Source: Amycolatopsis sp. FDAARGOS 1241
GTDB taxonomy: Bacteria > Actinomycetota > Actinomycetes > Mycobacteriales > Pseudonocardiaceae
Direction: 5' to 3'
Assembly (NCBI RefSeq): GCF_016889705.1
Contig: NZ_CP069526.1
Location: 5,022,001 to 5,086,000, forward strand
DNA length: 64,000 bases
In this document: piece after piece, positions 3,276 through 64,000 of the stretch
Position numbering within the stretch: the first letter of the stretch is position 1
Layout: the number at the start of each line of letters is the position of its first letter
Notes under the pieces: model-generated
What the model was told of the DNA's origin: nothing
What the model saw: only the letters and a program-made list of their open reading frames with translations
Database searches by the model: none
Translations under genes and position numbers: made by a program

Positions 3276-3405
3276 AGCAGAACTCTACGGGATTCAGGTG
3301 AGCCGTGCTGGCACTTCACCCCGCCGAACGGTTCGAAACCGGATTGAGTTCATACCCGCGAACAGGTCAGGCGAGCTACCGACTAGAAGAGGACCGCATA
3401 GTCCA

Positions 3406-4023
3406 TTATTTCGCATGTAAGCGGACCTGGCCGAGGGCCATGTCGAGCGCGGCGCGCAATTGCTCGGCGTCCTGGGCGGTGTGCGCAAGCAAGTAACCTC
3501 CCTGCAGCGCAGCGATGACGCCGACAGCAAGAACCTCGGGCACCGCGTCGGAATCGAGGTCACCGGCAGCCTGGATGCGGGACAGCGCCGAGGTCAGCAG
3601 TCCCTGCCACCGGGAAAACGCTGCAGCGAGAGCAAGCCTGCCACGGTCGTGCCGGCGAGCGAGGTGGTAGACCAGCGAGCCGAGGGGGCAACCGCGTTCG
3701 GCCGTGCGCGAATCGAGCAGTCGCGCCTGCCACCGTTCCAGGTCTGCCAGCCGATGGACCGCGTCCAGGCTGGGGCGCTGCGCCCCTAGCACGACCTCGA
3801 GTTGAGTCGTGACAATCGCCTCTACGATGCCGTCGGGGTCGGGAAACAGCTGCGCGAGGTCAGCCAGCGTCACGTGCGCGGCGGCACGAATACGCGCAGT
3901 GGTGAGCGAGCCGACGCCTTCACGCAGCAGCAGTGCGGTCGACGCTGCCACAACGCGCGCTCGAGGTCCCGGCTCCGAAGGGTCGCGACGCGAGCGGGGC
4001 CTGTCATACCAGTCGGCCGTCAT
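3406..4023 (-). CDS. TetR family transcriptional regulator
   Basis: 205 residues from the ATG at 4023. The N-terminal helix-turn-helix shows ARVVAASTALLLREGVGSLTTARIRAAAHVTLADLAQLFPDPDGIVEAIV, the usual TetR three-helix domain; the rest is a helical ligand domain (RGCPLGSLVYHLARR, LAVGVIAALQGGYLLA) of the type seen in regulators of oxidoreductase or efflux genes, where CPLG follows a conserved position. The frame stays open to 4674, but that part has no family similarity and weak coding character, so the start at 4023 is preferred for the normal TetR length. No obvious target gene is adjacent. Confidence 0.85.
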   Translation of the reverse strand: MTADWYDRPRSRRDPSEPGPRARVVAASTALLLREGVGSLTTARIRAAAHVTLADLAQLFPDPDGIVEAIVTTQLEVVLGAQRPSLDAVHRLADLERWQARLLDSRTAERGCPLGSLVYHLARRHDRGRLALAAAFSRWQGLLTSALSRIQAAGDLDSDAVPEVLAVGVIAALQGGYLLAHTAQDAEQLRAALDMALGQVRLHAK

Positions 4024-5118
4024 GGTGGCAACAGTAACCGCACGAGATCCGGCAGGGGATGTCCCCTGAGCAAGTAGGGCCCAAATGGTCCACTTCTTAT
4101 CCGCTGAGGGCAAAGCTGCAGATACGAACTCGACCTTTGCGGACGCGAGCCCCCCGGCGTGCAGTGGTCCCGCTGAGCTCGCGACACCTGGCGCCGGCAC
4201 CTCGACCTCATTGCCATCCCCGCTCCCCGTGATGGCGAGCGGCCGCCAATGGCCAGACGCGATAGCACTCGTGGACGCGGCTGGCAGACTTATCTGCGGG
4301 TTGACCATGGTGGACGATGTGGTCCGCGGCAGGTGAGTCCCGGACAGGCCAGACAGGGAAGAGGTGCCCGAACGAAGGCGATTTTGCTGGGAGGCAAGGC
4401 TGCGGGCACGACCGGGGATGACACTGATGGACCCGACCCGGGCTTGACGAGGCTCGCCGACCTCCCGGGGGCGAACTACGGCGATGGTGCTGGGATGAGG
4501 TTGCGTGGCCGTCGACTTGGATCGACCGCCGCGGCCGACAGCGGACGCTGTCGCGGTGGTGGAACCCGGAGAGCACAGCCAAGCCTGTGCGGCTGACGGG
4601 AAGTGGTGAGCCGAACGGGCTCGGATTCTGCACACTGCACTGGAGTTGATGATGGTCAACGGGGTGGCCGCCACCGCGCTTCGACGATGTCCGCGCGGCG
4701 ATCAGCACCACCAAGTCACTGCTCTACTGGGTTCGTAGTGACTCGACCAACGAAGCAAGTCCATATGAGCGTTGCAAGGCCGTCAGCTTCGATGAGATTG
4801 TGCGACAGACTGTCCAGCTGTACGGGATATACAACCGCCACCAGCGGTCGCGGCGAACCACCGCGAGCCCTTCTTTCGTGTCACCTTGGCGACGGGCTCT
4901 ACTGGACCATATGGTCCCCGTCAAGTCCGGCGGGCGAGGGAGTACAGCCAGGTACCTCGAGCCGAGCCGCGGCCGAGCGATTCCACCCAGTTGCCAACGG
5001 GTGACTGCGCCACCATCCGAACCGCCACGGACACTTCGGCCGGCCGTGCGAGAACCCGGGTCGGCGGGGCGATTCCCGCAGGCCCGGGTTCTCGCACGGC
5101 CGGACGGCGCGTGCTCGG
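4024..5118. other. Gene-poor stretch, no recognised gene
   Basis: About 1.1 kb between the TetR gene and trxA. Several open frames cross each other but none has a family signature, a convincing ribosome binding site and consistent codon bias together. A plus-strand segment at about 4680-4880 reads as a plausible but unidentified peptide (RAAISTTKSLLYWVRS) without a start. Probably decayed coding DNA. Confidence 0.4.
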
Positions 5119-40203: not shown

Positions 40204-40956
40204 TCAGGCGATGAAGTCGTTCGCCACCAGGAAAGTGCGGATGTTGCGCCGGGCGTCGAACATGGACTTGTAGATGGCGTTGCGGTTGGTGCCCAGTCGC
40301 GCTGCGAGGGTGTCCATCGGGACTTTCTCGATCGCCACAGCGACAAAGACGCGTCGCTGGTGTTCGGTCAATACGTTCTCGATGGCACGAGTGAGCGCGG
40401 CTCGGAGCTCGACGGCTTGCACCTGGTGGGGTGGTTCGTCGCCGACGGCGGCGCGTGCGCGGTTCGCCTCGCCGTGGTCGGGACACACATGGTGATCCCG
40501 CCAGAAGTGCCGGCCGACTTTCGCTGAGACCTCGAGCATCACGAATTTGAAGGCCCACGTCGTGAACTGCGCATCGCCTCGGAATTCGCCGATCTTGCGG
40601 GTGATCCGCATGAGGGCGTCGGCTGCAGCCTGGTGAGCCAGGTCTTCGAGCTCGGGCCCGCCGATCCGCGAGCCTGAAGACCGGCGCGCGGTCTCTCTCC
40701 TGGCGACCTTGATGAGCATCGCGTACAGCCTGCGGCAGACATCTTCGAAGTTCGTGCTGCCAGGGCTCAATTCTTGGACCCAGGCGGCCGACTCGGGGTC
40801 GAAGCTGCGTCCACCGACCAGGACTCGTTCCCCGATCCCCGACGTGGTCATGTCGGCTGGGGTTCCCATCCGGCGCCAGCGGTGAATGCCGTCTGCATGC
40901 GAGACGCACCTGGCGTCATGCCCACTCACCTTCTCTCCGTTGACAGTCTTGTACAT
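40204..40956 (-). CDS. RNA polymerase sigma-70 family (ECF-like) sigma factor
   Basis: 250 residues from ATG at 40956. Region 2 reads LEDLAHQAAADALMRI and AQFTTWAFKFVMLEV; region 4 reads LTEHQRRVFVAVAIEKVPMDTLAARLGTNRNAIYKSMFDARRNIRTFL. It directs RNA polymerase to a dedicated promoter set. A paralogue begins at 63859. Internal ATG codons at codon 30 (40869) and codon 36 (40851, MTTSGIG) would give shorter forms; the first ATG is preferred because GGGGAGG lies five bases before it and the first 25 codons are conserved with the paralogue. No anti-sigma gene is adjacent. Confidence 0.85.
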   Translation of the reverse strand: MYKTVNGEKVSGHDARCVSHADGIHRWRRMGTPADMTTSGIGERVLVGGRSFDPESAAWVQELSPGSTNFEDVCRRLYAMLIKVARRETARRSSGSRIGGPELEDLAHQAAADALMRITRKIGEFRGDAQFTTWAFKFVMLEVSAKVGRHFWRDHHVCPDHGEANRARAAVGDEPPHQVQAVELRAALTRAIENVLTEHQRRVFVAVAIEKVPMDTLAARLGTNRNAIYKSMFDARRNIRTFLVANDFIA

Positions 40957-42513
40957 TGCAACCTCCCCGCTATGCCTTCACAGCTCCTTCGACAGCGCCT
41001 CAACGGACCTGTCCACCACCGCGTCGATGGCCATCAACGATCAGCCGAATCCATCAGGCGTCAGGCACGAAGAGAATCCGGGCGGCCTGAACGCGCACCT
41101 GCCGGAGAGACGTGCGAGATGAGGGCGGCTCAGCGGTCACGCAACGGTAAAACACCGCGCGTCCGGTAGTGGCCTGCCGAAGTTTCTCATCAGACTCCAC
41201 CTTCCGGTGCGGTGGTCGAGGGCGGACACCCCGAGACGGGGCCAGGCACCGCGTGTCCGCGGGTGACGAGGGCCCGTCCAGCATCGCGGTGGTGGGGGTC
41301 ACCTCGCATTCCTGCCACCTGGAGTTCGCTTCCCCCACCGTCGTCGCTGCTGCCGCAAGGAACCCCGGCGCCCCGAATGGGCACAATGACCATCCTCCCA
41401 GCCAAAAGCAAGTCCCCACGGGTCAGGAGCCAACCAGACGCTGCCAGTCCCCCACCATCTCGAGCGTGTCGGCAACGAGAACGCACATGCCCTTCGGCAC
41501 ACAGACTTCTCTGCGCAAGCAGGGTGGCCTCGGCCCTCCGAAGCCGATAAAGATCGCAACTCCAAAGTGGACGACACGACGAACGTACGACCCGTGCCTC
41601 ATCGGCTCGCCGGGGCCGACGATACGGCACGAGACCGTTTCTACGGCTGGGACTCATCGACGTCGGTCCCGCTGCCGAGAAAATATGGGCATCGCTACCG
41701 CCGCAGCGCAGAGTTGACGTTCTGCCGCTGCTACGCGCGCCCCCACCCGGCTGACCGCCTTGGTCCGTTTCGCCGAAACTTCGGTGGCGCGTTGAAAAAT
41801 TCCCAAGAGCCTGCCAGCGGATCAACACCGGGTCCGCCGTTGAGGCCCGTGGCATCGCCGGACCGTCCTGGCGGCGTTCAGGCACGGGTTCCTCACCATT
41901 GTCCTCACGGCCAGAAGCTCGCGTGGACGGCACTGCGCGAGGCAGACTTCGTTCACTGCAACGAAGTAAGAGACCTGCGCGCGACGCTCGTCAGCACACC
42001 GATCAAAAACAACGCAGTGGCTAAATTCCTTCGCTTGTCACAGAAAACAGCAATGCAGAGCCCGGCAAGCCACCAACAGCGACAAACATGCTGCACGTTC
42101 CACGACTTCAAGGGCGAGGGCTTGGGCAACGAGATCGGAGAGTTGACAACGATGCTGCGTGGCGGCCGCTGGCCGCCCACAACCAGGCGCCGCCGCCACG
42201 CGAACCCCGCAAGCCGTGACGGCGCGACGTGCGCGGATGGGCACCACCCTTGTCGACGAGAACCTGGCGCGCGGGCAGATTCGTCCGGCGAAGTCGGTCC
42301 ATGGGGTGATCACAAGCGACGTCGAGCGCGGTAAGCAGCGGTGAGCCCGTCGCGACGCCCTGGCTCTCGAGCATCTCCCACCTCCCGCGGGCCGGCGCAG
42401 CCGCTACTCGTTGCCGACGTCAGCGGGTGCGCTCGTCGCGCCATATGGCGCCGCGGAATCGGCCAGCGCTGGAGCATGCGGTGAGATCGCCGGCGCCCGA
42501 GGTCGTCGCGTGC
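40957..42513. other. Long intergenic region upstream of the sigma factor gene
   Basis: About 1.5 kb with no recognised gene. Sequence near 41900-42130 is lower in GC than its surroundings and holds an 8-bp hairpin at 41947-41968. The part next to the sigma gene should carry its promoter. Confidence 0.4.
41947..41968. repeat. Inverted repeat with six-base spacer
   Basis: ACTTCGTT and AACGAAGT around CACTGC, in a lower-GC island. The 8-6-8 geometry could be an operator or a recombinase site; it is too far from genes to be a terminator of one. Confidence 0.4.
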
Positions 42514-57804: not shown

Positions 57805-58288
57805 TGCCCAGTGGAGCGAAGCAACCCACCGAATGCTCGCCGCATCTGTTGGACGATTCACCGGCCACGTTTGATTCCTTCCTGGAGTAGGCATTTCAGC
57901 CGGACGGGCATCGCCAGGACCGGCTGCCGGTCACCGGTCGAAGGACGGCTCCGGCGCACCCCATCCTCCCGAGGATCCTGGTGACTCACATCGGTCACGC
58001 GACTCGAAGTCATTTGCCACTGACCGCCTGGACCCCCCCCTGGTCACCAGACCTGACCATCACTGAGCGTGGTACGTGACGGATGACCTAGACCCTGACG
58101 GTGGTCGCATACGTACTCCCCTACGCAAGCAGAAGCGTGATCACAGGTGTCGCGCACGGTACAGAAATCGGACCAGATGGTCCAGTCTATGGTCAGCGCC
58201 CGTCGGGTACGGCTACGATACCTACCGGCGCGGTGCCAGGACAGTGTCCGGCATCGGTAACCGGGGCCGGGAGTTGAGGGGTTGAGGG
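57805..58288. other. Divergent promoter region with C-tract
   Basis: About 480 bases between the SsgA-like and LuxR genes. No gene. It includes a run of C residues near 58033 and somewhat AT-richer blocks around 58080-58230 that may hold promoters. No clear operator was identified. Confidence 0.4.
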
Positions 58289-62117: not shown

Positions 62118-62446
62118 ACCCATGCGCAAATCCGACCATCCCGGTCCGAGCCGCAACGGCGGGCCTTCACCGCGCACCACCACGGCGGCCGGTGGGCCGG
62201 TCTGCGATCCAGAGCCGGGGGGACGACGGCGAAAGCCACACCTGCTGGGTCAGGCCGCACACACCGCTCGAATCCGGCACCGGTCACGGCAATGGCCACC
62301 CCGACGCCACACACGCCCGAGCGTGCGCTTACCTCGCGGCTTCGGAACCGTGGCTCTGGTGATCCGGCCGGACACAATTCCGAGGCAGGGGCAAGAGACG
62401 ACCACCCGCAGCCGCCACCAGGCGATCACCCACAGGGAAGGATACC
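62118..62446. other. Gene-free stretch
   Basis: No recognisable coding sequence or motif on either strand. Confidence 0.4.
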
Positions 62447-62629
62447 GTGCTCGTGAGCTACCACAGCAGTCCCGACGGACCAGTTTCGCCCGGCTTTTCC
62501 ACGACGACGGCGGACGCGAACGCTGCTCACAATCCCGTTCCGAAGGACCCTCTGAGGACTGTGGTCTCCGATGGCTCGGTCACCATCTTCGTCGCCGGCC
62601 CCCCGCTTGAGCAACCGGCAGCCGGATGA
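62447..62629 (+). CDS. Possible small protein
   Basis: 60 codons from GTG at 62447, with GGAAGG five bases upstream. Ser/Pro-rich start (LVSYHSSPDGPVSPGFSTTT) and a more ordered LRTVVSDGSVTIFVAGPPLEQ end. No family recognised; supported only by the ribosome binding site. Confidence 0.35.
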   Translation: MLVSYHSSPDGPVSPGFSTTTADANAAHNPVPKDPLRTVVSDGSVTIFVAGPPLEQPAAG

Positions 62630-63753
62630 CGCTGCAACGAGCTCGACTTCGCGACGTCGGTGTGTCGCGGGCTCGTCACCGTCGATCCGACCGGCGGTAG
62701 CGAGCTTGGCCCAGCGGGGGGTCAAGCGCCAGTGCGGCATCACAACGCAGTGTCCGCGTCAGGATCCCGGTGCCGGTTCGATATCGTCGCGAGTCATTCG
62801 TCGATGATCCGCGCGCTCGCTGTCAGGGGCGTCCAGCTGGAGGACGGCGGCCAACGGCACCGGGCGAGCACGTCTCATCACCCCGGCACAGTGGCAGTTC
62901 GAGATCACTTCAGACGGCGAAGCCGGGGCTGACTGGGTGCTGTTTTCCACCCTGCCCAGCGTGTGCGGGACGAGGGTGGAGAGCGCACGCTTCTGGTGAG
63001 TCCGATCCGTTGCCGCGATCGGTCCAGTCGCCGCAACGGCCAGTAGCCGTTGGCCTCCATGCAACCCCGGATCGCCCGCCGCCTCCATGGGTGGCACCGC
63101 GGAGAGACATGCCACAGCGGTCATCGCACCACATGCAGCCACCGGGTTTCAGTTACCTGCCAGACAGGGCGAACAATGGCGCAGCCGCCCTCAGCGCAGG
63201 CCCGAACGGCAAGCTCGTCAGGGTCATCGAGCACCCGCATGACGTTGCTCTGGGCGATCCAGAGCCAAACCCGGATGGGTCAGCAGCTCGGCGGTCCGCG
63301 GCCCGTCGCTTCACCACCAGCCATCGGGCAAGCCGCAGATCCCATCCCCGTTGCCCTTTTGCACTACAAAGTGGCGCTCACCTGACACCTTCACCGGTCG
63401 TCTTCGGAGACCCATCTGGACTTTTTGGTCCCGTTTAGCTAGGAAGGTGGAGGAGTCTCAGCTGCTCGTCCGCGATCACTGCGCCCGCCTCCCAGCGTGG
63501 CTGTCATCATCCACCAAAACAGGAGCCAGGATGCCCGAGGAACGTCGGCGGTGGCCCCCGCTCAGCCTCGAAGCATCGGCTTCGTTCGAAGGCTCAAGCC
63601 GGATCCGGTTACGCGGCCTCGTAATCGCTTCGCAACCGGGGGGCGCGCGTGTGTCTGGCGAAGCAGGCATCGACGCCCACGTTCTCCGGGTGAATGCCAT
63701 CGAGACTTCCGGATCCGGATGGCTCACTCCTGGGGGGACCAAGGAGGTTGCGG
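62630..63753. other. Gene-free region upstream of the second sigma gene
   Basis: About 1.1 kb. Overlapping frames without family signature or ribosome binding sites. The promoter of the second sigma gene should lie in the last 200 bases. Confidence 0.4.
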
Positions 63754-63834
63754 GTGGAGAAGACGGACAACGGAGAGAAGGCGAGGCGGCATGACGGCAG
63801 ATGTGTCCCGCACTCAGACGGCACAAGTCACTGA
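63754..63834 (+). CDS. Leader peptide upstream of the second sigma factor
   Basis: 26 residues from GTG at 63754, with AAGGAGG six bases upstream, ending in TGA at 63832-63834. It is in the same frame as the sigma start at 63859. Codon by codon it matches the first part of the 40204-40956 sigma protein: KT.NGEK, HD.RCV.H.DG are shared, and the TGA is at codon 27, where the other copy has Trp (TGG). So it is either a translated leader that ends before the sigma gene or an N-terminal extension cut by a nonsense change. Confidence 0.6.
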   Translation: MEKTDNGEKARRHDGRCVPHSDGTSH

Positions 63835-63858
63835 CACCGGATGGAAAAGACAGTCCCC

Positions 63859-64000
63859 ATGACCACGACGGAAACCAGTGGACGGGTCCTGGCCGGCGGA
63901 CGGGGTTTTGACCCCGAGTCCGCCACGTGGGTCCGGGAATTGAGCCCTGGCAGTCCAAACTTCGAGGATGCCTGCCGTCGACTCTATGCGATGCTCATCA
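63859..64000 (+). CDS. Second ECF-like sigma factor, N-terminal part (runs off window)
   Basis: 47 residues are visible from ATG at 63859: MTTTETSGRVLAGGRGFDPE and then WVRELSPGSPNFEDACRRLYAML, matching residues 36-82 of the sigma factor at 40204-40956 (GERVLVGGRSFDPESAAWVQELSPGSTNFEDVCRRLYAMLI) at about three quarters of positions. The window ends before the promoter-recognition regions. An in-frame ATG at 63841 is another possible start. Both lie downstream of the conserved leader in the same frame. Confidence 0.8.
   Translation, partial: MTTTETSGRVLAGGRGFDPESATWVRELSPGSPNFEDACRRLYAMLI

Follow-up and report, generated by a model that had tools for sequence, protein, structure and literature searches.

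The window, the whole stretch of 64,000 nucleotides that was analysed, contains two closely similar sigma factor genes in opposite orientation, which we call copy 1 (L001) and copy 2 (L002). The long frame of copy 1 matches TIGR02937 with 50.2 bits (cut-off 42.9), which identifies an ECF-type sigma factor, and its Pfam Sigma70_r4_2 score is 19.5, under the cut-off of 25.7. In pairwise comparison of the core, dN/dS for copy 1 is 0.17 with L003 and 0.21 with L014. The features of both loci are collected in Table 1.

Table 1. Features of the two sigma loci, in positions of the window.
Feature	Position	Strand	Remarks
Copy 1, ORF A continuing into the sigma gene (long frame)	40204..40956	-	250 aa, as in P0002 and P0003; Trp27 TGG at 40878-40876
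Copy 1, sigma factor proper	40204..40851	-	215 aa, ECF type (TIGR02937, core dN/dS)
Copy 1, GGGGAGG preceding ORF A	40962..40968	-	anti-SD duplex -12.5 kcal/mol
Copy 1, ORF B (MTPGASRMQTAFTAGAGWEPQPT)	40848..40919	-	23 codons, ends in an ATGA overlap with the sigma gene
Copy 1, ORF B ribosome binding site	40925..40938	-	duplex -14.7 kcal/mol
Copy 2, AAGGAGG preceding ORF A	63741..63747	+	anti-SD duplex -12.5 kcal/mol
Copy 2, ORF A	63754..63834	+	GTG start at 63754; stop TGA at codon 27 (63832-63834)
Copy 2, ORF B ribosome binding site (GGAGAGAAGGCGAGG)	63772..63786	+	anti-SD duplex -12.3 kcal/mol
Copy 2, ORF B (MTADVSRTQTAQVTDTGWKRQSP)	63791..63862	+	23 codons; stop and sigma start overlap as ATGA
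Copy 2, ECF sigma factor gene	63859..64000	+	215 aa; ATG without ribosome site; 215-codon frame open beyond the window to G000:C1:5086506

The host genome comprises 9.8 Mb, and the closest named relatives of the sigma protein come from Amycolatopsis. Besides copies 1 and 2, this genome has close copies in L003 and L004 (78% identical to the long frame of copy 1, with a single TGA in each) and two distant ones, L005 and L006. A genus-wide search gave a match at E<=1e-30 in 6 of 80 genomes, the host genome counted, and a family-wide sample a match at E<=1e-60 in 2 of 297 genomes, one of which is the host genome. The leader described below was compared in nine loci from five genomes (L001-L004, L014, L015, L016, L018 and L019), which include two near-identical pairs. 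The names L007 and L008 refer to the loci L016 and L017, and each was counted a single time; the fragment L020 was excluded from the counts, and P0002, P0003, P0006, P0018 and P0024 were compared as proteins alone. Two of the sigma genes look damaged. That of L018 (genome G031) has a frameshift about 68 codons in, to be explained by breakage of the copy or by an error in sequencing. Genome G059 holds a third sigma fragment (L020/L033), degenerate and with an internal stop, which shows that the sigma family leaves remnants.

The initial annotation had described a leader of exactly 35 codons (105 bases) behind a strong ribosome site upstream of both sigma genes, and this leader is indeed present in both: the ORF A ATG of copy 1 at 40956 lies 35 codons from the sigma ATG at 40851, as does the GTG of copy 2 at 63754 from the sigma ATG at 63859. 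The KT.NGEK and HD.RCV.H.DG motifs, the internal ATGs at codons 30 and 36, and the difference at codon 27 (TGG in copy 1, TGA in copy 2) were likewise found as described. The leader also contains an overlapping frame, ORF B. It begins with ATG or GTG in all nine leader-bearing loci, behind a site with an anti-SD energy of -10.6 to -19.6 kcal/mol, a level reached by no more than 1.7% of 1000 positions drawn at random from the window (0.7% for the ORF B site of copy 2). In the eight unfused leaders it is open for exactly 23 codons and ends in an NTGA overlap with the sigma start; the ninth (L019) is fused to the sigma gene. At the same eight unfused loci the sigma start lacks an independent ribosome site, the energies of -3.3 to -4.2 kcal/mol comparing with a background median of -3.3.

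Sequence change within the leader is distributed in a similar way. In an alignment of six rows, the 20 adjoining columns with the least variation comprise the last part of the ORF B ribosome site together with the ORF B start. Changes per column were 0.50 for the ORF B ribosome site and start and 0.45 for the NTGA overlap, against 0.88 for the body of ORF B and 1.09 for the part that separates the ORF A start from the ORF B ribosome site.

We consider it probable, at roughly 60%, that the leader common to these loci serves to load ribosomes and that the sigma factor is translated by termination and reinitiation from ORF B. Ribosomes would bind the strong site ahead of ORF B and translate all 23 codons; having terminated at the TGA within the overlap with the sigma start codon, they would reinitiate there and produce the 215-residue ECF sigma factor. 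In copy 1 and two relatives, initiation at the upstream start of frame A would additionally give the 250-residue form. Both the use of ORF B by ribosomes and the dependence of sigma output on it are what we infer from the comparison of sequences.

The arrangement appears to be confined to close relatives as far as seen, because by eye we noticed no comparable ORF B with an NTGA overlap upstream of ten distant sigma loci (L005, L006, L009-L013 and L021-L023). When the genus was searched with the leader, the eight matches at E below 0.002 were all located at the sigma genes considered here, although this search missed the leader of L016. Weaker matches (L049, L050, L051 and L054; E 0.002-0.009) had no sigma-like ORF according to a motif check.

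The leader motifs had been read in frame A. This frame could be the meaningful one, with copy 1 making a functional, N-terminally extended sigma factor and copy 2 a leader peptide up to the TGA, followed by reinitiation; the extension might bind a metal. We regard this as unlikely. Codon 27 is TGA in L002, L003, L004, L014, L015 and L019 (six of the nine leader-bearing loci); copy 1 has TGG there, and L016 and L018 have CGG. On this comparison TGA is the more frequent state, with copy 1 as the exception. The proposal of a simple nonsense change in copy 2 does not fit with a TGA at six of nine loci, other genomes included, and the same observation rules out a sequencing error at this codon. The ribosome site of ORF A is strong in L001, L002 and L004, as the frame A explanation would have it, although L004 lacks the start codon; it is weaker in L003, L014, L015 and L019, and there is none in L016 and L018. 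An ORF A start codon is present in only six of the nine loci, being replaced by GCG in L004 and by CGG in L016 and L018.

A further point for frame A comes from P0002 and P0003 (80% and 78% identity), in which it is open with Trp27 as in copy 1, and which cluster with copy 1 in the tree with a support of 90/81 (bootstrap not settled). An in-frame upstream start that opens into the sigma gene was found for these three only; copy 2, L003, L004, L014 and L015 do not have this arrangement. In L016 and L018 frame A is open but has no start codon at the ORF A position, and in L019 it is closed, yet the leader is fused in frame B. Since frame A contains no TGA in copy 1 and its two relatives, these may also make a form that is longer by 35 residues (250 aa), hence two isoforms. 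Constraint on this extension seems weak at best, because only 19-25 of its 35 residues are identical among copy 1, P0002 and P0003, in contrast to 166-176 of 200 in the core.

Conservation of frame A as an amino acid sequence, as originally claimed, was not borne out: nowhere in the leader did its similarity exceed that of column-shuffled controls. Over ORF B, frame A had a lower mean BLOSUM score than 93% of the column shuffles in the alignment of six rows and than 99% in that of five rows, a deficit that owes a small part to the stop-Trp mismatch. The NGEK and HD motifs are what frame A makes of the ribosome site and the start codon of ORF B. His13, kept in eight of nine loci, corresponds to the ORF B start codon read in another frame. 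The other supposed metal ligands are mostly lost (Cys17 and His20 in four of nine loci each, and neither in P0002 or P0003), so that the idea of a metal-binding extension with His13, Cys17 and His20 was dropped. Of the suggestion that the two copies differ in translational control, the difference in arrangement stands, copy 1 being open into the sigma gene and copy 2 resembling a leader peptide with reinitiation; the choice of frame does not.

Over ORF B, amino acid conservation in the two frames other than A was not significantly above that of column shuffles, and for codon-level conservation of ORF B the shuffles gave p values of 0.43 (six rows), 0.19 (five rows) and 0.30 (four rows). Frame B is open in all rows in 15-25% of the shuffles. 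Sliding windows in frame A from -135 to +33 gave no signal (z between -0.9 and -0.3), while control windows in the sigma gene from +33 onward reached z >=2.0 in six of eight cases and 1.0-1.1 in two; in non-coding upstream windows z rose up to 1.8. A conserved peptide was rejected for every leader frame for lack of an excess over shuffles, and in no frame did we find the conserved peptide or regulatory codon run that characterizes nascent-chain arrest or attenuator leader peptides. The amino acid sequence of the ORF B peptide is probably not functional.

The leader is nevertheless similar between copies beyond chance, as judged from the alignments. Ungapped identity of both leader parts was 62-86% among L001-L004, L014 and L015 (95-100% between L014 and L015) and 46-68% in comparison with L016 and L018. 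By contrast, the bases from -205 to -126 were only 14-40% identical in ungapped comparison, the pairs L014-L015 and L016-L018 excepted. For most paralogue pairs, local alignments stopped at the leader or at most about 90 bases upstream of it; the exception was the pair L002-L004, for which a gapped alignment is good up to 322 bases upstream of the sigma start. Because neither the shuffles nor the sliding windows revealed a signal, we describe the leader as conserved as DNA and not measurably as peptide.

Conservation of DNA without a codon signature in any frame would also be expected if the leader were an RNA element, either a structure or a protein site, that governs how accessible the sigma start is and does not need ORF translation. 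At least one double change was found in 6 of 38 predicted pairs, which points in the same direction. Against this, the covariation term of RNAalifold was only 0.02 (seven rows), an Rfam search of eight loci at gathering scores gave no match, and individual folds of the leaders differed from one another. A conserved RNA structure or Rfam family thus found no support in the first two of these results. Predicted pairing near the starts showed no clear pattern of the sigma start being hidden. As an RNA element would also leave the lack of a ribosome site at the sigma start unexplained, we judge this explanation to be quite improbable.

The leader might alternatively be a remnant of duplication, the sigma factor being translated from a leaderless transcript that begins at the sigma ATG, with the frames ahead of it incidental. 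Common ancestry of the copies at the DNA level, which is partly recent, agrees with this, and leaderless genes are described as common in mycobacteria (PMC4633059). Yet for most paralogue pairs (not for L002-L004) the leader has been kept over a longer time than the DNA upstream of it, and a TANNNT element right before the sigma ATG was absent from all eight loci in a check confined to this type of promoter. Such a leaderless origin is the explanation that we find hardest to believe.

Natural variants bear on the coupling of ORF B to the sigma gene. In L019, a deletion of 26 bases puts ORF B in frame with an intact sigma gene, the core of which is under purifying selection (dN/dS 0.11 with L014). 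There is a stop right before the ORF B ATG, and inspection by eye revealed no other ATG, GTG or TTG ahead of the conserved sigma region. Given the purifying selection on the core, translation of this gene, if it is used, should start at the ORF B ATG. The protein P0006 has a join identical to that of L019, and P0018 and P0024 have what by eye appear to be two different joins, both beginning at the ORF B Met, with an N-terminal ORF B peptide that resembles the one in L016 and L018. L017 has lost ORF B, and its sigma ATG is preceded by a strong ribosome site (-12.8 kcal/mol). In the variants known as DNA, the sigma frame is thus still served by a strong site, which would be expected of a sigma start that is unable to function by itself. 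By chance, one indel in three would fuse ORF B to the sigma gene, so the fusions count as support and not as proof.

The N-terminus of P0016 differs and lacks the usual sigma Met; judged by eye only, it is perhaps a frame A extension. With this protein, the three apparent frame B indels (L019/P0006, P0018 and P0024) and the opening of frame A in the copy 1 lineage, ORF B could be seen as a recurrent source of new sigma N-termini, with copy 1-type genes making the coupled short form as well as an extended isoform of different activity or stability. We put this forward tentatively, as an idea that is more doubtful than not.

The kind of control proposed here, by an AUGA-coupled upstream ORF, is already known, and the sigma leader would be a new example of it. 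The closest likeness is to uPPE2-PPE2 of Mycobacterium tuberculosis (PMC11260477), in which a short uORF, out of frame with the gene that follows, has a ribosome site and overlaps by AUGA with this downstream gene, which has none; in that report, translation of uPPE2 was shown to be necessary and reinitiation was supported by tagging. In distinction from that system as reported, the sigma leaders have no Rfam riboswitch match, the downstream gene encodes a sigma factor, four paralogues are present in one genome, and the coupling is predicted from sequence. Termination and reinitiation at ATGA overlaps have been documented broadly for overlapping gene pairs (PMC6728339), which share this stop-start device with the sigma leader; the partners described there are genes, whereas the sigma genes are preceded by an ORF of 23 codons without conserved peptide. 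The Escherichia coli iraD uORF, by its description (PMC5574718), likewise couples a short upstream ORF to a gene that acts on a sigma factor pathway, but iraD is not a sigma gene and is subject to CsrA regulation.

Copy 1 further resembles the Streptomyces SigR/SigR' pair (PMC5472188), in which an in-frame upstream ATG of the sigma gene gives rise to a longer isoform. The SigR' extension is reported to comprise 58 residues, to be made from the transcript of a second promoter and to be a Clp substrate. Here, the extension has 35 residues and comes from the overlapping leader, and frame A is closed by TGA in six of nine loci. Among the matches listed by a keyword search of an open-access collection, no description of a coupled uORF ahead of an ECF sigma gene came to our notice. 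The record of leader-sigma fusions is unusual. Our reading predicts that a 23-codon ORF, which gene tables would miss, sets the output of four sigma paralogues in this genome. Coupled, fused and leader-deleted copies form a natural comparison series for reinitiation in high-GC actinobacteria and suggest a route by which upstream ORFs become N-terminal extensions.

The surroundings of the sigma genes also have features in common, with matching neighbourhoods at L003, L014 and L015. The gene ahead of the sigma gene (window ~62377-62871; L025 7691-8167) has similar DNA at copy 2, L003, L014 and L015. By eye it looks like a gene for a STAS-type anti-anti-sigma protein, but a Pfam search with the L025 copy found nothing. 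A molybdopterin oxidoreductase gene follows copy 2 and also belongs to the neighbourhoods of L003, L014 and L015 (assigned by PF00174 for the L029 copy and by similarity for the others). From these neighbours, a response to redox conditions or electrophiles is our guess.

A palindrome, GGACY-N4-RGTCC, occurs in the window at 3391-3404, 4904-4917, 58170-58183 and 63418-63431 (4 observed, 0.54 expected), and also in L002, L003, L014, L015, L016, L018 and L019. It is located 170-592 bases ahead of the sigma start in seven of ten loci and at most 75 bases past the gene in three. Ten loci of 18 kb contain 28 such palindromes, whereas two control palindromes occur there 3 times and once; these counts are not independent because several of the loci are homologous. 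The narrower form GGACT-N4-AGTCC showed no excess across the whole host genome (10 places versus 8 for the backwards control); five of the ten places are at 2.504-2.595 Mb near L003 and L006, and two at 5.087-5.097 Mb, at and past copy 2. A text search for one exact form of the palindrome gave no match. The palindrome looks like a shared operator, and a candidate for the regulator is the putative TetR-like protein encoded at window 3409-4674 (minus strand), an ORF with an LmrA/YxaF-like TetR C-terminal domain (PF21993, PF16925) and a palindrome on either side.

Parts of these neighbourhoods are more alike than the sigma genes themselves. The molybdopterin oxidoreductase stretches that follow copy 2 and L003 (L024 9688-10531 and L025 9527-10369) are 99.2% identical, compared with 88.9% for the sigma genes and leader of the same two loci. 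Among L002-L004, bases +150 to +600 of the sigma gene agree to 94-96%. These stretches were likely subject to gene conversion or copying in recent times.
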